Below, in pieces: positions 29,373-45,326 of a DNA stretch of 60,443 nt. Under the pieces are notes generated by a model. That model worked only from the letters and a program-made list of their open reading frames with translations, ran no database searches and was not told the DNA's origin. The position numbers and the translations under genes were made by a program. The DNA lies in NCBI GenBank assembly GCA_949751835.1, contig CATKHK010000143.1, positions 1 through 60,443 of the forward strand, written 5' to 3'. Source of the stretch: Blepharisma japonicum. Its lineage: Eukaryota > Ciliophora > Heterotrichea > Heterotrichida > Blepharismidae. The first letter of the stretch is position 1. Each line of letters begins with the position of its first letter.

Positions 29373-32300
29373 ATGTTAGCTGTTCTTTTATTGATTCAGC
29401 TCATTTCCGCCTATGATGTTTATATAGTCCCGCACTCTCATTGTGATCTCGGTTGGCTGGACACTATAGATGGGTATTACAACTCACATGTTGGCAAAAT
29501 ACTTGACAATATCGTGACTATTTTACAAAAAGATCCGAAAAGAAAAATAGTGTGGTCCGAAACTTCTTACCTTAAGCAATGAATGCAAAATTCCCCATCA
29601 TCGAAAAAAGACACCTTTAAGAGACTTCTTAAGGATGGACAAATCGAAATCGTCGGAGGTGGGTATGTGCAAAATGATGAAGCCAACCCGGATTTCGATG
29701 AGGTTATTAGACAAATTAATATGGGTCATGAATATCTAAAGGAAGAGTTCAATATATCTAGAGTGCAAGTAGCTTGGCAAATTGACCCATTCGGATACTC
29801 TGCCTTAACTCCTAGCATATTCTCGAAATTTGGCTATGAATATTTAGTAACAAATAGAATTGATGTAAATTTCAAAGAGCAGCTGATTAAAGAAAAAAAT
29901 ATTGAGTTCATATGGGAAGGAGTTAATTTTGGCGATAATGAGTCTATTTTGCTTCACAATCTGTATGATCATTATATTTTCCCAGACTTTTTCCACCATG
30001 ATAACCCAAGACACTGCTTCTCTTCAGAAACATTAACCGATAAAACCCTTTCTGACTGGTAATTTTTATTTAGCACTGACCGTCTTCATGATTTAATTGA
30101 AAGAAGAAAAAAAGCTCATAGACATGATAATTTGATGATTTTGTATGGAGATGATTTTTATTATGTAAAAGAATGAGATGCTGAGCTAAAATATAGGAGA
30201 ATTGAGGCAATCAGAGAATATATAGGTACAAAATACCCGAATATCAATATAAAAATAGCAACTGCGAGTGAATATTTTGAAGCTTTAAAAGCTCAAAAAA
30301 TTGAATTTTCTGTATATAAAGCTGATCTTTTTCCATATGTAAATCAAAGATCATCAGGGGAGCCTGGAATATGGACAGGATATTATACAACGAGACCTCA
30401 TTTAAAACAAAAAATTTTTGAGACGAATCAGCTTGCTAGGGCTGTTGAAATAGCACAGGCGTTAAGCTTAGGAACTAATTTTTATGCATGGGAATCAAGC
30501 CTTGCTTTACATCATGATTCGATTACAGGAACATGCAGGCCTCATGTCTCTGATGATTATAAAACCCGCCTTGCCAATGAAAGAAAAAATGAAATAAGGG
30601 CAATAAAAGACGCGATTAAGGGAAAATTCACTGAAGTCAATGATAGCTTTGCATTGACTTTGCCTTATAGAGTAGTTATTGTTTATAACCCGTTAAATTG
30701 GGATAAGACTAGTTTGCTAAGCTTTGAAGTGGATAATGGCAAATTTATACAAATAAAGGATTGAAAGGGGAAAATTGTTGTTTCCCAGTCTGTTAAAAAT
30801 TTAATGAACAATAAAAAGACAGTGTATATTAAACTGAAATTGCCTGCACTTTCATTTGTTACATTATTTATCAATGACTACACAGATAAGTGCCCCTTTT
30901 GTGACAGCGAATCTGAAGAATCATCGAGCAATTTTATATCTGACAAATTTTTTACAATAAATTTTGACGATTTTGGCCTTGTTGAAAGCATTTTAAAATC
31001 AAATCTCACTTATAAGTTAAGCCAAACCTTTTGAACTTACTCAGGAAGAAGAGCTGGAGCGTATTTATTCCAACCTCCAGATTCAGGAGGTAATATAAAA
31101 GATCTGAAGTTAGAAAAAATTCTCGTTTCTAAAGGAGAAGTGTTGGAAACCGTTGAAGTCGTATGAAAAAGATCCCAAAAAGCGCTGAATATTGATCACT
31201 ATTATCAAAAAATAATTTTATATGGAGAACAAAGATTTATTTGAAAATATGGTTTATATGCTACTAGCAATGAAGAAATATTAGTCAGGTTCTCAAGCGA
31301 TGATATAAATGGAGACAAATGGTTTCTTACCTCAAACTCAGGAGACTTAAGAGAGAGAAAATACTATCAGCAAAGCTCCAGCCAAAAAGGGTACAATATG
31401 TATCCAATCCCAGGGGGGTTTGCTGTAAAAATGAAGGAGAGCTATTTAAAAGTTTTTCCAAAGTTTTCAGTTGGTGTTGCTATGGTAGACAATGCTTCAT
31501 TTGAACTTCTTCTTCATCGAAAGTTGCAGCAAGATGATGGCTTTGGACTAGGCATGGGGGTTTCTGACGATACTTTTGTTAATTATCATTTTGAGATAGA
31601 GTTAGGTGATCTCACACATAAAAGTTACATGAAATCCTATTTAGAAGCTAAAACAGACATTTATCCTTTTACGCTTACAAATAAAAATGAGATTGCAATT
31701 ACTGATGATTCTTGGTCGGAAGGCGCAGTTTTTGACTTCAATTGGAATAAACAAAGAATTTATTCCTTAGGGTTCAATAGCTCTGAGTACTACCTTTCAA
31801 GTGTAGGGATGAAAAATGGCAAGCTATTTATGAGAGTCTTAAACTTAAAAGACTCCTCTCAAAATTTGCATGTAAGTGGATGGAAATTTTCAAATAAAAG
31901 CTTGTTTAATGGGAACTTGAATTACACCACTTATCCTTATCCATACAGAGCAGATAAGGAAATTTCTTTTATAAATAGAGCAGACACAGGAATGAAAAAG
32001 CTTCTTCCTAAAGTAGATGAAGAATCTGATGGAGAAATGATGATGAACCCTTATGAGTTTGCCGCTTATTATGCTGAAAGTGTCGCAGCTGATGAAGAAG
32101 AAAGCAAAAACAATACTAAAAGCGAATCAGAAAATAAAGAAGAAAGCGATGATGGCTTAAAAAGCGAACCAGAAGATAGAAATCAAACTAATAAAAACAT
32201 CACACATATAGAAAATATCGAAGCAGATAGTAATTTCACAGAAAGTGATCCAAATATCTTTGAAAATAAAACAAGTATGAATGACACTGATTTAAGTGTT

Positions 32301-32702
32301 GATAACGAAAATGAGACAGAAAATAAAAATGAAACTGATAGAAATCAAGAAGAAGATTTTAAAATCAGTGCAGAAGAAGTCGAAACTAGCAAAGACTTAG
32401 AAAATCGTGAAGAAAGTGTAAATAGTACTGATGAATCTAAAAATAAGAGCGATGAAAAAAACAATGATGATAGCAAAAAGGATGAAGGAGGTGATGGTAA
32501 AGAAATTAAAAATATTGAGGAAACAAACATGAAAGGAAATGAAACTCACTACATTATAGTAAATATCTCAGATGCTGATGAAGAAAAACTTGATGATTCA
32601 CAAATAATCGAGTTTTGTATACTTTTTGGTGTATCTATTGTGTTTGTGGCTAGCTTAATTATCTATATTAGAAGAAAGAGACATCGCATAAGAGTAATTT
32701 AA
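29373..32702 (+). CDS. GH38 alpha-mannosidase with acidic tail and C-terminal membrane anchor
   Basis: Exons 29373-30058 and 30074-32702, 1104 aa. The signal peptide is immediately followed by VPHSHCDLGW (zinc ligands His21 or His23 and Asp25 by family), QIDPFGYSALTP with the nucleophile Asp138, GDDFYY and LHHDSITGT. Six UGA Trp codons are present (29580, 30174, 30762, 31032, 31164, 31242). After the beta domains comes an Asn/Glu/Asp/Ser-rich stretch (about 900-1065) full of NxS/T sequons, then one TM helix (about 1075-1095) and a basic tail. This is type I topology, unlike animal Golgi mannosidase II. Family role: trimming alpha-mannose from N-glycans or glycoprotein turnover. Paralogue at 33667. 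Confidence 0.93.
30059..30073 (+). other. 15-nt intron
   Basis: GTAATTTTTATTTAG, splitting a TGC codon. It lies at the same codon and phase as the intron of the neighbouring mannosidase, so it predates the duplication. Confidence 0.92.
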
Positions 32703-33666: not shown

Positions 33667-36627
33667 ATGTGGGCTTTTCTTTTGCTTCTTACTGCTTGCT
33701 CCAGTATTGAAGTATACATTGTCCCACACTCACATTGTGACCCTGGGTGGATTGAAACAGTCAAATGGTATTATGACAGACAAGCTCGAAGCATACTGAA
33801 TAACATTGTAGTCATCTTGCAAAAAGATCCAAGAAGGAAAATAGTGTGGTCCGAGACTTCTTTCTTGAAGATATGGATGGAAGAGATAACAGATGCCAAG
33901 AAGGACCTTTTCAGACAGTTCGTGAAAAACGGACAAATTGAATTTGTGGGAGGCGGGTTTGTCCAAAATGATGAAGCCAACCCAGATTTTGAAATGGTCA
34001 TAAGACAATTAGAAACTGGTCATCAATACCTCAACCAGGAATTCGGCATCAACAGAGTTAAGGTTGGCTGGCAAATTGATCCATTTGGTCACTCTGCCCT
34101 GACACCAAGTTTATGGTCAAAATTTGGGTATGAGTACTTGGTGACTAACAGAATCAACATCCTGATGAGAGATGAACTTGTGAGAGAAGGAAACATTGAA
34201 TTCTTATGGGAAGGCGTCAATTTTGGGTATAATGAGTCTATTTTCACTCACAATTTATATGACCATTATGACCCTCCTCCAATGTTGCACCCTTACAAAA
34301 ATCACTGCTTTACAAAGAACAATCTCAGTGACGAGCTTCTCAGCAGATGGTAAGAGTTATTTAGCATGAAACTTTTGAATGAACTAGCCAAGACAAGGAG
34401 ATCAGCCTATAAGCATGATAAACTTATGCTTCTCTATGGAGATGATTTCTATTATATGAATTCAGACGAAGCTGAAAAGCTTTATCAAAGAATTGAGGCA
34501 TTAAGAGATTACGCAGAAAGGTCAACTGAATACCCAGGACTGAAAATAAAAATCGCCACTGCAAGCGAATACTTTGAAGCAGTCAAATCAGCAAATCCGA
34601 AACTGTCAGTGTATAAAGGAGATTTATTACCTTATGTAAACTTTAGGGCTGGCAGAGAGCCAGCACATTGAACTGGGTATTATACCACAAGGCCTCACTT
34701 AAAACAGACCATTTATTATACACATAAACTAGTCAGGGCGACAGAAATAGTTTTGGCTTTAAGCAAAGGGGCTTCATTTTTCGCTGGTGAATCCAGCTTA
34801 GCGTTGCACCATGACGCTATTACAGGGACTTGCAGACCACAAGTAGTTGAGGACTATACAGAGCGTTGTGTAGAAGAGCAAAAAAAGGCAATAATTGCTA
34901 TTAATGATGCCATCCAGGACCGATTTTCAAGTACAGAGCAAAGCTTTGAATTGGCTATTCCTTACAGAGTCCTTATTGTTTACAATCCACTTAACTGGGC
35001 AAAAACAAATCTTTTTAGCCTGGAAGCTGATGAGAACGTTTTTATCCAAATAAAAAATTGGCAAGGAGAATATGTTCCTTCTCAGTCAGTAAAAAGCATC
35101 ATTGGAAATAAAAAAACAGTCTATGCAAAGATCGAAGTTCCAGCGCTTTCATTTGTCACTCTATTCATTAACGAATATACAGAAAGCTGCGAGCATTGCG
35201 ATCAAGGTTCAGAGCAGCAAGAAAATGGCAAAACTATTAGTGACAAGCATTTTACTATAAACCTAAATGATTTTGGAATGGTCCAAAACATCAAAAAATC
35301 TACCAAAAAATACGATTTAAAGCAGACCTTCTGGACTTATTACGGGTCTCGAGGAGGAGCCTATATTTTCCACCCCACAAACAATGGAAATGAAATTAAT
35401 GACCTCAGTCTAGACAAAATCATAGTTTCTAAAGGACCTTTGCTGGAAACTGTAGAAGTGGTATGGAGAAGAGAAAGAAAGACCTGGGATGCAGACTATT
35501 ACTATCAAAAAATAATTTTATATGGAGAAACCCGATTTATTTGGAAATTTGGTGTTTTCGCTACCAATAACGAAGAAATTCTTGTAAGATTTTCAAGTGA
35601 CAATATAAGTGGCGATAAGTGGCTACTGACCTCAAACTCTGGAGACCTGAGAGAAAGAAAGTATTTCCAAGAAACCGCAACCAAAAAAGGATCAAATATG
35701 TACCCGGTACCAGGTGGCTTCGCTGTCGACATGGGAAAAGAGTACTTGAAAATATTCCCCAAATTTTCTATTGGAGTCGCTATGGTTGACAATTCCTCCT
35801 TTGAGCTCCTTCTCCACAGACATTTAGGTCAAGACGATAACTTTGGGCTTGCTTATGGGGTCGACGATTACATGTTCCTTAATTACCACTTTGAAGTCGA
35901 ACTAGGCGAACTTACACACAGAAGTTACTGGAAATCTTATCTAGAAGCTAAGGCTGATATCTATTCTTTTCCACTAACAAACTTTGATGAATTCTTGATA
36001 TCTGGAGAGGCTTGGTCTAATGGTGTCCAAGTTAATCAAACTTGGGACAAAGAAACCGTCTACTCTTTAGGCTTCAACCATTCAGATATTTATCTATCAA
36101 GCGCAGTAATCAAGAATAGTCAGCTGGTTATGAGAGTCATGAACCTTAAAGATGCAGCCCAAAGTTTGTCCGTGAAGGGCTTCCAGTTTACGAAAAAAAA
36201 GCTGTTTGATGGCTTTTTAGATGCATCGTCTGTAAAGGTCTCGTGGAAGAGAGGGAAAGAGTTTGAGTATAGCCAGAAACCAGACACAAGCATGCCGAAA
36301 TATTTGCCTAGAAGCGATGCAGAGTCAAAGATTGGCAAGGTATCGCTTCATCCTTTCGAATTTTCTACTTTTAACGTAAAAATTGTGCCAGCAGGAGAAG
36401 AGCAAGAAGAGAGTAATGAAGAAGAAGTTATTGAAGAAACAGAGAGCGAAACTGAGAACGCAGAAGGAGATACTCCATTAGTTACAGAGAGGCCAGGAGT
36501 TTCACAAGCAAGCGTTGATGATATTCAAAGACTAGAATATGCTATAGTGTTTTCGCTGACTGGAATTGCTTTAATCAGCATTATTTTGCATTTTAAATCT
36601 AAAGGGAAGAGAAAAGGGATAGATTAA
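33667..36627 (+). CDS. GH38 alpha-mannosidase, tandem paralogue
   Basis: Exons 33667-34349 and 34365-36627, 981 aa. Signal peptide, VPHSHCDPGW (His21, His23, Asp25), KVGWQIDPFGHSALTPS (Asp138 nucleophile) and ALHHDAITGT (His376/377) are intact. Sequence around the active site is closest to Golgi class II mannosidases. A short acidic linker and one TM helix (about 952-972) end in a basic tail. Only one UGA Trp (34669) is used against six in the upstream copy, and the codons are visibly more GC-rich, which suggests stronger expression or different age. The acidic sequon-rich extension of the upstream paralogue is much shorter here. Confidence 0.94.
34350..34364 (+). other. 15-nt intron
   Basis: GTAAGAGTTATTTAG, splitting TGC. 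Position and phase equal those of the upstream paralogue. Confidence 0.92.
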
Positions 36628-37020
36628 TATAAAAGCTATTATTTAAGAAAATTAAAAAATCATTAAGCTGCTTCTATTCAAAACATTTCTGGATATCAGA
36701 GTATTAGAGATAACTCTATTCTTTAGAATATTTAAAGCACTTTCTTTCATGGGTTTTAGAAAGTCAATTAGAGCAAATTATAAGTGCTCTTTTATCAGAA
36801 CTGCAATGTATTAATGCAAACTATCTGATTTTCTTTATTTTAATAATAACTTTAGCATGACTGCATCCCTTTAAACTATATTTATTCTGATTAATATCTA
36901 CTCAAATCTTCTCAAAGTCAAAGATAGATTCAGAGTAAACAATAATTGAATAAATTATATAACACCTAATACCCTTACATTATTTCTACCTGGATTCAAA
37001 AATTTTACCCAAATTCCTCC
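36628..37020. other. Convergent intergenic, no gene seen
   Basis: AT-rich spacer between the mannosidase stop and a minus-strand gene. Nothing recognised. Confidence 0.5.
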
Positions 37021-37395
37021 TTAGTTTTCTTCGCTTATGTTTTCTGTTGCTTCTTCTATCTTGATCAAATTGGGCGAGCCAATCGTAAATCCATCTCCGT
37101 CCTCAGGCTTCAGCCTTTTCTTCCTCTCCAGCAAATAATTGTCTAGTGGTGACGTCATTTCGTCCAGCATATTTCTCGGCGGTATATACACTTCCCCAGG
37201 TTTTTGCTTTTGCTTTGCCAGCCTGATGAATTCACTCTGAATTTCCTCTAGATTGGAAGCTGGGTCATGCTTACTAAGGATCCGCATAATGGCTGGGTCG
37301 TTTTTCTCCACCATTTCCTTCAAGATCTCTTCTTCGTGTATGGATATTGCTCTGGAGTTATAAAGACCAGCTATGACAGAATATGCGTACTCCAT
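37021..37395 (-). CDS. Small acidic protein, 124 aa, unknown
   Basis: ATG at 37395, TAA at 37021-37023. Mostly helical and charged, beginning MEYAYSVIAGLYNSRAISIH and containing SPLDNYLLERKKRLKPEDGD near the end. There is no TM segment or signal. It starts 31 nt after the stop of the large channel gene on the same strand; in ciliates this is close packing rather than an operon. Function unknown. Confidence 0.75.
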   Translation of the reverse strand: MEYAYSVIAGLYNSRAISIHEEEILKEMVEKNDPAIMRILSKHDPASNLEEIQSEFIRLAKQKQKPGEVYIPPRNMLDEMTSPLDNYLLERKKRLKPEDGDGFTIGSPNLIKIEEATENISEEN

Positions 37396-37426
37396 AATTT
37401 AATATAAAAATTATAAATCTTATTAT

Positions 37427-40400
37427 CTATCCTCTCATCAGTTTTTCACATTTCTGTTTAAGCTTTTTTGCTTTATCTTTCAAATATTTGTTCTGCTTTT
37501 TATAATTTTTCAAGTCTTCTTCGAGGTGGACGTTATAATTTTTCAAATTTTTGATTTCGCTCTTTGTCTCTTCTACTCTTTCTCTTGAAGTTTGTGTTGC
37601 GTTGCTCTCAGCTTGGAAAACAGCGCTTTCGTAGACTTTATCGTACAATTTTGAGTCCAAAAGGCTTACTATTGTATTGTCGCTGTCATCTAAAGCGAAG
37701 ACATTATTATCCCTTTCTTCAAGTAGCAAAGAAGCTAAAATCTCTGCTTCAATTCTATTGGACTGGTTTAGGTAAAGTGCGATTTTAGCTTTTTCGTTTT
37801 TAGACATACTTACCCATAGCAACATTCTTTTGTCTTTTGCAAGCCATTCTTGTCTCAGTAAAAATCCAATAGGGTCGCTTGCTGACTTATAAGCCTTTAC
37901 TACAGGCCTGATATCACCAATCCATTTTTTTATAAATGCCCTTTTGTCTTTGTCTTCTAAAGACATCCATAGAATTCTTTGGATTTTTGGAGTTCACTCT
38001 TCTGTATCACCACTAAATCTATTTCTATCGAAAACTGCAGCATTCCATACCAGCACACGCTCTTCATTTTGGAATGATTCTTCTCCTATCCACATGTTTA
38101 ACTTATCTTTTGTAGGAGTTATGTCCCACAGCTGCATTTGTCGCTCAGAAAGTTCAGAAGATTCAGGAGGCTCAAGACCTTCTTGGATGGCTTTTTCGAT
38201 TTTGCGCCTTAAATAATCGTTATACAAAATGGACAGCTGTCTTCAGATTTTGAGCTTTCCCAGTGGATTTTCTTGCAACCATTGATTCTCTTCAACAAAC
38301 ATAACTTCTTGAAGCATAGCTGGCTGGATGATTTTTTCTTCAGCCATGAACACTTCTTTAAGGTTGGGGAGATTGATCTTGCTATTGCTTTTTTCCAATA
38401 AACTTTCTTCTAAGACTTTTATTCACGCATTTACAGTATAGTTTACAGGCTTGGCTACTTCAATCTCATAGTCTAGGTTTTCAGAAGCCTTAGGTAACTC
38501 TTCATCAGAAGGGGTTTCTTGGTCTTCCTTTTCTTTAGCTTTATCATCGCCAGCATCTTCCCATTCCATTAACTCTTTTCTCTGTCATTTGGCTTTCAGG
38601 ATCAAGATTATTTTTTTAAAAAATCCAATTTGTGGCATTTTTCTGCAATCTTTGCCAGTATTATAATGGGCATAAATAATCGCTATGAAAATATTTAACA
38701 GCAGCAAATTAAATATAATGCTAAGCGTGACAAACCATAGCATCCCTATGCTTCCATCAGCTGATATAATCTGATTTACATTAAACTGTCCTAAAAGCAC
38801 ACTGAATGTCGAAAAAAGAGAATAGTTAAATTTTCGAAACTCTGTGATGGATTGGCCGAAAATCAAGTATCCCATTATTGTGTAACCTATGATCACAAGG
38901 AAGAGCATTAATATATAAAAGATTAGATCAAGCTTGGCAGAGCTCAAGATGTCAGTCAAAAGAGATAACTGCTTGCTGAACTCGAAATATTCAAGGAATC
39001 TGAGAAATATGATCAAGCAGTTGAAGCAAGTAATAAGTTCATATTGAATATACAAATCACTAATCTCACTGAATTCCCCAATTGTGTTTACCCAATTCTC
39101 CCCAATTTTATAATTTTTAACAAAATCGTTAGACATTAGTGTTGCAAGGTAGGACAATTGAATAATTGATAATATTACAGATACTAGCTGAAGCAGTTGA
39201 AACATATCCATCTTCAAAAATATCATCAAAGACTGAAAAAGCTGCTTGATTGTAAAAATAATCCACACAAGCATTCCTCTGATCTTTTTGGCAATCTTCG
39301 AAAAAATTATCCCTAGCCCAGCCTCGCTTTCTTTATCGTTTCCTTGCAATTTATCAAGCACATCTCTAACTGCTCTTTTCCCTCTGAGGATCCTTTTTCT
39401 ATCTCCAGCTAATTTTCTCATGATTTTAAGCCACTCATAGCCAAATTGGCAAATAAAATAAATTATGAATAACAGAAAAATGATATCAAGCCCAGCTCTA
39501 ATTTGAAATTGCTGAGTATAAACATCTAACTCTACAGTTTTTGCAGAAAGGCTTGCTGAGACTTTCCCAGAAACATCAAGAATAAAAGATATGTAGGTGT
39601 AGACAAACAGGTTCATGTTTGCATTATAAGTGATTCACTCAAGTGCAAATAAATTTGTTTCATTTACAACTAAGCCATCTGCCTTTGCATTTAAAAATGC
39701 TTGCTTAATATCTTGTTCATCAAAAAGTTCATAGGTGTATCCACCTTCTTCTTTAAAAGTTGCTTTTGTCCCAGGGCTAACATATCTGAACTTGGTCAGA
39801 GTAGATATTCCTTGATAATTTTCATGATTATAATTTGGAGGGTCGCTTGTAGCATTTTTTATCACAGAATTTGAAAAGCCATTATCATTTTTATCAAGTT
39901 TGTATCGATTCATAGTAATCCGAACCTTTGGGCTCGTTAAAAAATAATTTTGCACTCCTACAGTTTGCGATTCTACATAAGGGACCATTATTTGCTGCAA
40001 AAATTCATATACAGACTCAGAATTATTAATTTCATAAAAAGTTATATTGGTGCCTTTATACACAAACTTCGGCACTGCTAAAGAGTCAATAACTAGGGAA
40101 TTCAAAACAAAAGAATCTTCAATTCTTAGCCTATATTTGGCTGCAATCACATAAATAATGATAAAAATGATATATAATATCATTTCTACAAAGAGTCTGA
40201 AATTGTAATTTACTTCATTTTCCCTCACTTTCTTCAAGATTTCTTTTTTTGCCTTTTCCTGCTCCATTGTCCTTATCGTATTTTTTAACTTGAGTAATAA
40301 TTGTTCTCTTGTCAATAAAGAAGAGCCTGCCCCTCTAAGAACAAGTTGGAGCTGCCCAAAGTTATATTTTAGTATGCTAAAGAGATTTTGCTGGCTTTGA

Positions 40401-42250
40401 AGTAAAATCGCATTTTCGAGCTTTCTCATGCGCTCATTAATTTCTTCTTGTTCCTGGGCGTTTGTAGTAGATATCAATGAAAGCTTCTGGTATTCAATGG
40501 CATCTTCTTCTAAGTTGTTTTTTATTCTGAGCAGCAAAAAATTTAGAACAATTTCAATAAAAGCATTGCTATCCTCAGTCAGCATGCGAGCTCTAGCTTC
40601 AATTAGAAGCTGTGACCTCTTCTTTAGTTCTGTATAAACACTCAGCACAATTGCAAGAAATGTATTTAAAATGATGAAATAAAAAAGTGAGATAAAAACA
40701 ATATAAAATACCCCTGCGATATTATTGTTACCTACTGTTATTTCACCAATTATTTCTATTGCAAGCAGCGCAGACCAGAGAGATGACATTGTACTGCCAA
40801 AGGTCGAAAAGGAATTTGTCGTTAAGCCAAACCCTAAAAATGCTGAGAGAGAAAAAGCAATCATAAGGAGGATAGTAATAAACCCAAAATTCATAATATC
40901 GTTTTTTGCCATGTTAATGGTATCAAAAAGCACCCCAAATGATGGAAACTTAGACTTTAAAATGACTAAAACTCTGAAAATTATCAAAAGTGCAGCTATT
41001 GCAGTAACTCTTATCAGGATCTTGAAGTTTTCACAATACACCACAAAGTCGCTGAACGCACTATCAGAATCAATCGGAATATGCAATTTCCCAATATTTC
41101 CGATTACATTTTGAATAAATAGGGAAATTGAGGTGATAACCAGCATTAGTGTGACTATTTCCAAATATTCATGCCACGCTATATCTAGCTTCAGCTTTGT
41201 CCAAAGCGTTGTACAGATCCTTATAATACTTTGGACGAACTTGTAAATCTGCAAGAGAAATCCAGCAATATAAATAAGTCCTAAAATGACCACGATTTTT
41301 GAGTCACTATTCCAACTTTCATAAGCTTCAGGGAAAATCCCAACGGAGTTGCTAGTGCACGAAAAACTCCCTGAGCTGGTTCGTTCAACTGTTTGGTAAT
41401 AATATAGCGTTGTCATCAAATTTGAATTTTGAACTAGCAGTTCTGCGGTGATGCTCACAAAATAGTCTGGGTTCAGCCAAATAGATTTCATCGATCTTCA
41501 TCTCAAAAAAGCATCCTGCAAGGTCAAGTTGCAAAACAACTCGACATAAGCACCTGAATCTCTGAAGCCTCCTCCGCTGGAATAGTTAAAAATCCCCAAA
41601 TCATTTTTCTCTTCGCCGTCAGAGTTTGAGACTCCAGCTCCCAAATTAGGGTCTTTTCTAACCCATCCGACAGCTTCTTCATATTCAGAAAAAGGATTCT
41701 TTTTAAGGGTTGCTCTTTTAAGGGAAAGTCTGAGCCCAACCACATAATTATATTTGTTTATAAATTCATTAGTAAATGCACCAGGGAGCAGAACTCTCCT
41801 GTAATAAGTGTCTAAATCATATAGCGACCCAATGTCATTGAAATATTTATTTGGGTTGCCGGCCCACACAGTATTTTCGAAAAAATCAATTATTGTGAGA
41901 CTTACTGGGGAGGACTTATCGACTCTATTGATAAAGATGCTCAAAACAATGAAAATTAGGGAAACGATAACTGATATGTAAACACCTTTCGCATTTACAG
42001 GGGTCGCTTCTAGAGACCTCTCAAGGTCTTTTTCGACAACGGAAAGCTTCTTTTCGATAGCATCAAGCTCTTGGTCAACAAGTTTGATGTCATCAATGGT
42101 CAGATGACCTTTTGTCCTACTTATGTTTTCTAAATCATTTTGCCTCTTTTTTAAGTCAGATGTCATGATTAGTTTTGGTTTTATGTCTGTTTTGCTAGTT
42201 TCTACACCCTTCTCAATAAAATTTGAGCTCTCCTCAATTTTGTCTTCCAT
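37427..42250 (-). CDS. Tandem (two-module) polycystin/PKD2-type cation channel
   Basis: 1607 aa in one frame from ATG 42250 to TAG 37427-37429, interrupted only by UGA Trp codons (41498, 39635, 38585 and others). Module 1: TM1 91-107, a long extracytosolic domain to about 315, S2 318-338, S3 363-381, S4 411-431, S5 455-476, pore 482-500, S6 510-540 (FYFIILNTFLAIVLSVYTEL). Module 2: TM1 686-705, second extracytosolic domain, S2 921-938, S3 1018-1038, S4 1071-1090, S5 1108-1131, pore with FSTFSVLLGQFN (compare LGDFN of PKD2), S6 1160-1195. A 385-aa cytosolic tail ends in a coiled coil. PKD2 channels are homotetramers; this chain could form a channel as a dimer, as two-pore channels do. Module 1 lacks the LGDF-type filter. 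Ciliary or cortical location is inference. Confidence 0.9.
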
Positions 42251-42467
42251 TTTATAAATAAGCCGTTTTAATTAAGAATACTGAAAAATTTAAATTATCA
42301 ATTATCATTGAATGTTTCCTATGAAATAAGTTCTTGTTTTATACTTTTGCTTAACTAAAATCCAGGAAATAATAAAATCAAGACTCTTAGTAAATCTTGC
42401 CTTGATTCAAGGATTTTTATATATTATAAACTAATGTATTCTGAGATAAAAATTTATTTTTAAGTAG

Positions 42468-42858
42468 ATGAAGCTCTTCAAAGCTCTAGTTTGCATTGTC
42501 CTGCACCTTTTACTCGATTTTTTCTTTTTCTTAGTTATTTTAATTTTCAGTTTTATTTCCAAGATTCAATCAAAGCTTGACTTTTAACATTTCCTGCTGT
42601 GCCAGTCAACACCTCATTGTTACTTCCCTTTACATTTCAGACTTATTCCATGAGCAATTTGGATATTTTACACCATTATTTTTAATATCACTAGCCAAGA
42701 GTAGGAATAAATTAGTGAAAAATCTAAAATGGCTTTATTTGAAATTTATAAGTGTATTATTTCTTTTTCTGTTATATAAAGTTTTCTTTACTCTTTACAT
42801 TTCCTTATTTATGGGCATGAAGAAAAGGCAAGTTCTAGTCATTGAGTTTTCCTATTAG
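42468..42858 (+). pseudogene. Possible small membrane-protein gene, frame broken
   Basis: ATG at 42468 opens a hydrophobic 39-aa frame to TAA at 42585; an overlapping frame (42544-42858) continues with two further hydrophobic segments (KFISVLFLFLLYKVFFTLYI) to TAG. I find no 15- or 16-nt GT-AG intron joining them. It may be a broken gene, or chance in AT-rich DNA. The rest of 42,251-43,489 holds nothing recognisable. Confidence 0.3.
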
Positions 42859-43489
42859 CCCACCAAAAATGATTCCATTTAAATTTTTAGATGAAACCCA
42901 GTTAAATTCTTGCAGATATATTATATAATTTTAGTTATTTTAATAGATTTGCAGGCCATTACTTGAGATATTTTCTTAATATCTCTAAAATACTATATAT
43001 TACCTGGATTTCTCTGCCATAAATTAAAAATTTGCTTTTAATTAATTTTCAAGTTCGTAATTATGTATGATTAAGTCGATTTTGAGCCTGAAATTGTTTT
43101 AAGTTTTCTTTTTAAAATTATATTAATAGTCTTTTATATCCTGCTGCTCCTTGCGATAAAATTTGAGCAAATAAAGTATCTTCCGTGATAAATAGGGAAT
43201 TTGAACTATTAGAATATATTTTAGTCTTTTCTAAGTGGTATGGATACTTGCTGTACTCTATCATCTGCAGTGTCTCACATTTTTACAGAATCTCCTCATA
43301 AATATTTTCTTAGAGAGTAGCAAACTCATCTTGAATCAGTTCATGTATCTTAATTGAACTCATAATTATTTGTTTATTCGTCACTTAGCATTGATTATCG
43401 AGCTCAGTTAGCAAAGATCCAGGCATTCCATGATAATTATACTTCAATCTGTCTTGAATTTAATTGATCATACGATATTTTGGCCTTGA

Positions 43490-43840
43490 TCATTAATTCA
43501 ATCAAGCAAATTGAAATTGTAAAAGGGGAAGAATCGTCTTATGAAAAGAGTAATGGTGAGAAGATATAAAAGAATCTTTACGGTTCTGATCCGTGTGGTG
43601 CTTATAGAGTAATTCTTGCAATCAATTTGATGCCATTGGCCATATCTTAGGATTTAAATGCAGTCTTGATGTAATCAATTTGATTTTACCTTAATTTCGA
43701 TTCTCATACTTTTTATGAGGAACTCTGACTGTGGCTCGAATTTCTTCCAGTTGTTTGTGCAACAGTTCTGTATTTCCTTTGATAATAATAATTTTTTTGC
43801 TTTGATTGCTTTTTCTTTGACATTTTATACGAATTTTAAG
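43490..43840 (-). pseudogene. Decayed coding fragment of unknown family
   Basis: About 110 codons stay open on the minus strand apart from one TAA: NTELLHKQLEEIRATVRVPH, then the TAA, then LHLNPKIWPMASNWLQELLY. The first part looks like a conserved helix. No start or intron is found. Probably the relic of a coiled-coil-containing gene. Confidence 0.35.
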
Positions 43841-43937
43841 TCAAAACTCAATTCTTTATAGAATTATTTAGCAAGCAACAATTAAATAAAAATATTAATA
43901 AAAATAATTTTAATAATTTATTGATTATAGATTGAGC

Positions 43938-45326
43938 ATGTCTATGATAATTAGCAAGATTTGGAATTATGATGTATGGTATAACCCATTCTCACATGTA
44001 AAATCGCACATCAGCTGATGGGATGAAATGCTTGAAACTTTCAGTGGAAGAACTTTATTCTTGCTATTTTCAGTATATTTCTCACAAGGATTCCGCCAAT
44101 TTGGGTATTTTGCTACAAGTCTATATTTGAAATTGTCATTCGGGCTTGAATTTTCTGAAAATCAGCTTATACAAACAATGATCCTCCTAGCTTGGAATAT
44201 AAAGCCAGTGTATGGACTCATAAGTGACAATTTCCCTATATTCGGATATCATAGATGTGGATATTTATTCTTATCTGCTGCTATCGGAACGATCTCTTTT
44301 ATGACATTCTTTTTCATACAAAACTTGACCGCTTCTATAATTGCTTTAATCATTTCAGAACTCAGCCAAGCGATAGCAGACGTAATGGCTGATGCTATTG
44401 TGGTGCAAGAATCAAGAAAAACTCATATAGAGGGATCCGATTACCTTCAGTCGTTCTGCTGGTTTTGGCTTGCATTGGGTGCTATTACTGGTGGGCTTCT
44501 TGGTGGGTTTTCTTTGAACTTCTTGTCTCCTAATAACGCTATTGGTGTGCAAGTGATTTGTCCGATCTTGATTTTAATTGCGACATTTTTATACCCTGAA
44601 CAAAAATCAGGTGATCACAGTTCTTGCAATTCGTTTAGTGAAAAATTGAAAAAACTATTTAAGCTTTGGTCTAAACCAATTGTATTTAAAGTGATGTTTT
44701 TCAATTTCCTAAACAGAGCAACTGTTCCTTCCTTTTCAATGCTAATGTTTTATTTCTATTTTGATAAGGTGGGATTTTCAAAAGAATTTATGTCAGCTCT
44801 TACCACAATTTCATTCATTGGACTTGCCTGTGGAAGCTTTGTGTATGCAAAATTTTTTACGAAAATTGCTTTTAAAAAGCTTATGTTTTGAGGATTAATT
44901 TTTATTACTCTTTTTAGCTGGATAGATTTTTTATTGGTTTTTGGAGTTTATAAAGATATAGGGATTAAGGCAGAATATATAGCTGTTTTCAGTACTTTTA
45001 TTGGAAATATTGCAGATTTTACAATAAAAATGATGCCAACATTGGTAATTGCTAGTTTACTATGCCCAAATGGCTCTGAAGCAACCCTCTTTACATTATT
45101 TAATTCCGCAAATAATATTGGAATATCTGTATCATCTTTATTAGGCCCCATGATAGCAAATATCCTTGGGATTTACAATGCGAATAATCCAAATATCTGG
45201 ATTCTATTTGTAATTGGAAGTCTTTCGAATCTCATATTAGTGTTATTTTTGTTTTTGATTCCAAAAAGTAGAGAAAAGTGTTCAGTTGAAGACGAAGAGC
45301 TTACCCAGCCTCTAATTCAGGACTAA
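43938..45326 (+). CDS. BT1 / folate-biopterin-type transporter
   Basis: 462 aa from ATG 43938 (43944 is also possible), TAA at 45324-45326, with UGA Trp near the start and at 44889. About 12 membrane helices. The BT1-family signature between TM2 and TM3 is clear: WNIKPVYGLISDNFPIFGYH followed by RCGYLFL. SELSQAIADVMADAIVVQESRK is the other family hallmark. Family members carry folates, biopterin or related small molecules, mostly in plants, kinetoplastids and apicomplexans. The start at 43938 extends the protein upstream of the later ATG at 44028 by a soluble segment with two adjacent Trp. Substrate not predictable. Confidence 0.9.

Follow-up and report, generated by a model that had tools for sequence, protein, structure and literature searches.

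Does the long frame between positions 37427 and 42250 of the window encode one channel subunit built of two polycystin modules and, if so, what kind of channel would such a chain form? The window is the entire contig C143 (60,443 nucleotides) of a Blepharisma japonicum genome that was searched at 45.2 Mb in 224 contigs, and a first-pass annotation had described the frame as a single run of 1607 codons with UGA as Trp. That description is borne out on the minus strand, where the frame runs uninterrupted from ATG at 42250 to TAG at 37427 (1607 aa) with no internal TAA or TAG and six in-frame TGA codons read as Trp; the two S6 strings and the LLGQFN motif that the annotation quoted are likewise present in the translation. 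The features, all on the minus strand and with residues numbered along the protein, are as follows.

37427..42250, minus: tandem polycystin gene, 1607 aa, TGA read as Trp, no intron detected
40592..42016, minus: module 1 (residues 79-553), with S1, extracytosolic domain and S2-S6
41930..41986, minus: S1 of module 1 (residues 89-107), hydropathy peak 2.78
41303..41929, minus: putative extracytosolic (TOP-like) domain of module 1 (residues 108-316), placed by hhalign to module 2; below Pfam detection here, detected in the divergent paralog L009
40751..40762, minus: filter position of module 1 (residues 497-500), AIEI, not PKD2-like, placed by alignments
40292..40591, minus: linker, 100 aa, predicted cytosolic, conserved
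38636..40291, minus: module 2 (residues 654-1205)
39497..40138, minus: putative extracytosolic domain of module 2 (residues 705-918), placed by the PKD2 alignment and a Polycystin_dom match below cut-off
39215..39271, minus: additional hydrophobic segment ahead of S3 in module 2 (residues 994-1012), seen by hydropathy, in an insert absent from PKD2
38780..38797, minus: filter of module 2 (residues 1152-1157), LLGQFN, placed by alignments
37430..38635, minus: C-terminal region, 402 aa, predicted cytosolic, common to the five close paralogs
37430..37555, minus: C-terminal heptad repeat (residues 1566-1607), a = I, N, L, N, A, C; d = L, L, Y, L, L, L

Reading frame and module content

The longest stop-to-stop frame in 36601-44000 comes to 1614 codons; in 500 simulated order-1 Markov sequences of equal length and like composition, the longest frame averaged 144 codons and never exceeded 289. 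Four of the six TGA codons (alignment columns 287, 1386, 1451 and 1534) face TGG in at least one paralog, while one aligns solely with TGA (column 958) and one with Ile or Phe (column 1315); columns of mixed TGG and TGA are many in the six-paralog alignment, which supports the reading of TGA as Trp in this genome. A single-module polycystin gene of the same genome, L025, has two 15-nt introns, and the 41-Mb genome of Blepharisma stoltei is described as reading UGA as Trp and having introns mostly of 15-16 bp (PMC9942806); no intron candidate of that kind (15/16-nt GT-AG, at least 80% AT) was found inside the 1607-codon frame. A Pfam scan of ten other frames in the window found no channels there, but MFS/BT1 transporters, a Pescadillo homologue, a Kelch protein and two adjoining plus-strand frames (30132-32702 and 34366-36627) that resemble GH38 alpha-mannosidases.

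The gene product, as translated, is one chain that holds two complete PKD2-type modules of six transmembrane helices, a claim of the first-pass annotation that Pfam, profile and alignment matches uphold. Specifically, PKD_channel (PF08016, cut-off 22.4 bits) was found twice, with each module separately above the cut-off: 75.9 bits in module 2 (38657-39271) and 41.2 bits in module 1 (40628-41230). Among solved structures, a profile of the six module 2s finds PKD2 as its best match (E 5.4e-46, extracytosolic domain covered) and a profile of the six module 1s finds PKD2L1 and PKD2 (E 2.6e-24); PKD1L3 comes next after PKD2, and TRPC or TRPML are far weaker. Aligned with each other by hhalign, the two profiles match over 447 columns (E 4.8e-34), the S1-S2 region included, and BLASTP within the window protein alone pairs the pore halves (E 2e-8) and a portion of the extracytosolic halves (E 0.004), so that sequence comparison shows the two modules to be homologous over almost their full length. 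The Pfam signal for the extracytosolic domain itself is uneven: Polycystin_dom (cut-off 23.6 bits) reaches 20.7 bits in the window protein, in module 2 only, and the domain of module 1 is visible there by profile comparison only. Among the paralogs, both modules of L009 and module 2 of L013 score above the cut-off and L012 reaches 22.9 bits; Pfam gives no Polycystin_dom match in L010 or L011, and in none of the five close paralogs does it detect the domain in module 1.

Hydropathy follows the same plan: the window protein has 12 Kyte-Doolittle peaks, and each of the five paralogs has between 10 and 12. In module 1 one peak is followed by a gap of about 210 residues and then by five peaks, and the S1-S2 spacing is about 210 residues in each module. 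In module 2 the fourth helix, S4, stays below the threshold and an extra weak stretch (residues 994-1012) precedes S3, and the count of six helices in that module therefore follows from the alignment to PKD2 rather than from the number of peaks. The extra stretch lies within a basic insert between S2 and S3 (39206-39439, about residues 938-1015), which PKD2 does not have; columns 284-361 of the module 2 profile are correspondingly unaligned to PKD2.

Tandem genes among the channels of the genome

Six genes of this genome encode polycystins with two modules per chain (6/6), each as a single frame: the window gene, the neighbours L010 and L011 on contig C4, L012, L013, and L009 on contig C65. 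A whole-protein genome search aligned five tandem genes collinearly (the window gene, two on C4 and one each on C29 and C10), with L010 and L011 being 68 and 66% identical to the window protein over residues 1-1607, and the C29 and C10 copies each 37% identical (over residues 50-1602 and 52-1588, respectively). The sixth gene, L009, is divergent (1332 aa, about 21% identity), and carries PKD_channel and Polycystin_dom twice each. Among the 10 matches listed from that search (23 candidates scored), none was a close-clade module standing alone, and the other matches listed were partial only. Scans of the collections of viral contigs and genome contigs found no relatives; the one eukaryote genome covered by the searches was this one. 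Purifying selection acts on the modules, the linker and the C-terminus in the L010-L011 pair, where dN/dS is lowest in the linker (0.10), reaches 0.14 in module 1 and 0.17 in both module 2 and the C-terminus, and is highest in the N-terminus (0.34); in the other six pairs computed, synonymous sites are saturated or near saturation, so selection is shown in the L010-L011 pair only and elsewhere the comparison speaks to conservation. Six tandem genes, together with selection in one pair, support the tandem polycystin as a real gene. As a side observation, dS in the L010-L011 linker is 0.13 as against 0.52-0.55 in the modules and C-terminus, for which local gene conversion or a constraint at the DNA or RNA level are candidate readings.

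The wider census, in which all counts are lower bounds, gives at least 35 PKD_channel matches in the genome, of which the six tandem polycystin genes account for 12. Another 13 fall in 11 large genes (L014, L030, L015, L016, L020, L027, L031, L019, L021, L017 4393-9498 and L018 4211-9499): all 11 have four Ion_trans stretches and thus are four-repeat channels of voltage-gated type. The last two of these frames, and some others, end at locus edges, and a shorter piece of the L018 gene (L017 1-4314) shows three Ion_trans stretches. Three neighbours on contig C16 (L016-L018) and three on C71 (L019-L021) form arrays of genes with four Ion_trans repeats each, of the voltage-gated calcium/sodium-channel type. 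Five further matches are single-module polycystins (L022, L023, L024, L025 and L028, with the two domains of L025 on different exons), and a sixth single-module polycystin (L035 3679-5805), picked up by way of Polycystin_dom alone, has a clear match to that domain but none to PKD_channel, and its S6 is odd. The remaining five are other or ambiguous: L026, L029, L032 and L033 have PKD_channel without Polycystin_dom in the frames examined, and for L034 the frame examined excludes the PKD_channel match and shows weak EF-hands only. L026 and L032, each about 1195 aa, look similar by eye: both are TRP-like, have long N-termini and lack Polycystin_dom.

In a tree of 19 rows (root unknown, long branches, few rows, L035 left out), 12 of 12 tandem modules are separated by one branch (96/97) from five single-module polycystins of this genome together with PKD2/PKD2L1; with L009 and the long row L022 removed, support for the split is 91/94, slightly short of the tool's mark. 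Within the five close paralogs, the module 1s form one group at 100/100 and the module 2s another, also at 100/100, which places the fusion before the divergence of these five genes. We tentatively suggest, from these sequences, that one polycystin gene was duplicated internally and that the resulting tandem gene was itself later duplicated. The position of L009 is less settled: neither a grouping of all six module 1s (p-AU 0.216) nor one of the two L009 modules with each other (p-AU 0.436) is rejected, and the six module 2s group at only 56/26. The module 2 profile scores 125 bits on module 2 of L009 and 73 bits on its module 1, which sets the former closer to the other module 2s, while the module 1 profile gives no separation (63.7 bits on its module 2, 59.5 on its module 1). 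With the L009 modules so placed, one ancient fusion or two separate ones are both possible; the L009 fusion may be a separate event, and the order with module 1 first holds for the five close genes.

Filters, linker and predicted assembly

According to the first-pass annotation a PKD2-like filter is kept in module 2 alone, which stands for the window protein and fails as a rule for the family. At the position of the PKD2 LGD, module 1 reads AIEI in the window protein, GLDI in L010, GIDI in L011, GKYD in L012, GEFD in L013 and FDNID in L009, and module 2 reads GQFN, GKFS, GNFS, GQFN, CYYD and GEFN in the same order; L013 reverses the asymmetry, with a PKD2-like acidic filter in module 1 and CYYD in module 2. 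An LGD-type filter is absent from the window protein, with the Asp missing from both modules, and in module 2 none of the five close paralogs keeps that Asp (Q, K, N, Q, Y). We take the loss of the Asp as drift within the family, whose membership of the polycystins rests on the domain matches; the changed acidic residue suggests a selectivity other than that of PKD2.

Solved polycystins are tetramers, and the entries listed here contain either four chains or three chains together with one of PKD1 type. Since each tandem chain has two modules, two chains per pore are predicted, and we consider it likely that the protein is a single-chain tandem polycystin of which two copies form a pseudo-tetrameric channel with a 2:2 subunit ratio. 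The modules would alternate round one central pore to form a cation channel, the single chain would fix the ratio at 2:2, in contrast to the homotetramers of PKD2 and the 3:1 PKD2:PKD1 complex, and the differing filters of modules 1 and 2 would set its ion selectivity. The even number of transmembrane helices would leave both linker and C-terminus in the cytosol. By analogy with Paramecium Pkd2, our guess for its location would be the cilium or the cell surface.

The dimeric arrangement, drawn from the tetrameric architecture of polycystins, is weakly favoured by the heptad repeat of the C-terminal region, in which no Pfam family scores above cut-off and no EF-hand match was found. Asn at the heptad 'a' position is typical of two-stranded coiled coils, and it occurs there in five of the six paralogs (the best stretch of L012 lies elsewhere and has no Asn). 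A C-terminal coiled coil is probable on this pattern, with a signal that is modest against shuffles: out of 500, 19 equalled the heptad repeat of the window protein, 48 that of L010, 52 of L011, 96 of L012, 164 of L013 and 3 of L009. In L010 and L011, though not in the window protein, Pfam gives weak bZIP matches that stay below cut-off and point faintly toward a two-stranded coiled coil.

Three other readings bear on this arrangement. First, module 1 might be a non-conducting regulatory or structural part, with the chain joining other polycystins and the filter coming from module 2 only. The degenerate AIEI of the window protein, the variability of that position across paralogs and, for the five close paralogs, the lack of a Polycystin_dom match in module 1 would fit such a role, and at least six single-module polycystins in the genome are potential partners, so that co-assembly with them is possible. 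Module 1 nevertheless retains its pore helix and S6, is better conserved than module 2 (75% vs 65% identity between the window protein and L010), and in L013 is the module with the acidic filter, and we consider this reading unlikely. Second, the chain might be cleaved after translation into two single-module channels, effectively two genes in one frame; the Toxoplasma protein TgTRPPL-2 (2191 aa, 14 TM predicted) is described as running at about 150 kDa and thought to be cleaved (PMC8216714), and Chlamydomonas Pkd2 is reported as cleaved (PMC6627415). Cleavage is less probable still, for the linker is highly conserved (97% between L010 and L011, 74-75% from the window protein to either) and ranks among the best conserved parts of the protein; its Pfam hit, Enkurin at E 0.084, is weak and below cut-off. 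Third, side-by-side duplicates such as L010 and L011 exist in the genome, but a misreading of two neighbouring genes as one is rejected and close to refuted, since several tandem genes are all single frames (five more, on four other contigs by our count of C4 twice, C10, C29 and C65), the 100-aa linker is stop-free and under selection in the measurable pair, and no hidden 15/16-nt intron candidate lies in the frame.

Relation to known channels

The predicted two-chain tandem channel resembles polycystin-2 and PKD2L1 (TRPP) in that each module has S1, a large putative extracytosolic domain, S2-S6 and a pore helix. It differs in having two modules per chain, in the replacement of the LGD Asp in both, in the S2-S3 insert of about 78 residues with its extra hydrophobic stretch in module 2, and in a different C-terminus that has no EF-hand match in Pfam; with two modules per chain instead of one (four chains per channel), it is a variant rather than an ordinary PKD2. 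Two-pore channels (TPC) have two six-helix repeats per chain and form a pseudo-tetramer as a dimer, which the tandem protein shares in its repeats and, by prediction, in its assembly. The repeats of TPC are members of the voltage-gated superfamily, whereas the tandem modules are polycystins in which a putative extracytosolic domain of about 210 residues separates S1 from S2; a TPC or voltage-gated identity was rejected, as the best solved relatives are polycystins and PKD_channel outscores Ion_trans over the whole protein (96.2 vs 45.7 bits, each in two stretches). The PKD1:PKD2 and PKD1L3:PKD2L1 heteromers would be similar in joining two kinds of subunit with unlike filters in one pore, but they do so from separate chains at 1:3 (3:1 PKD2:PKD1 complexes are cited in PMC6627415), where the tandem protein has one chain, a predicted 2:2 ratio and no PKD1-type extracellular region.

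Among protist proteins, TgTRPPL-2 is similarly a large alveolate polycystin-like protein; compared by description only, the accessible part of its report gives PKD homology and no mention of two modules (PMC8216714), and it might be a two-module protein that went unrecognised. The oomycete PKDRR proteins are also protist polycystins with added parts, differing in that these are RyR-type domains joined to PKD, with two channel modules not described in the part of the source at hand (PMC7399828). Among the matches listed from the open-access literature (titles and abstracts, with subscription papers and most preprints outside its scope), none described a two-module polycystin.

We hold the chances to be about even that two-domain polycystins are a new class of TRP channel, arisen by internal duplication in heterotrich ciliates and perhaps in alveolates at large, which would form obligate 2:2 dimers and whose filters (Q, K, N, Y, E) would have diversified toward differing selectivity. 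To our knowledge, TRP channels are tetramers of single-module chains; chains of two and four modules are known from the voltage-gated superfamily. If the proposal is true, two-domain polycystins would be the TRP counterpart of two-pore channels, intermediate between one- and four-domain channels, and such a family would show the same evolutionary step within TRP channels. Tandem polycystins would then be natural concatemers with a fixed subunit order, useful for learning how different polycystin subunits combine in a single pore.
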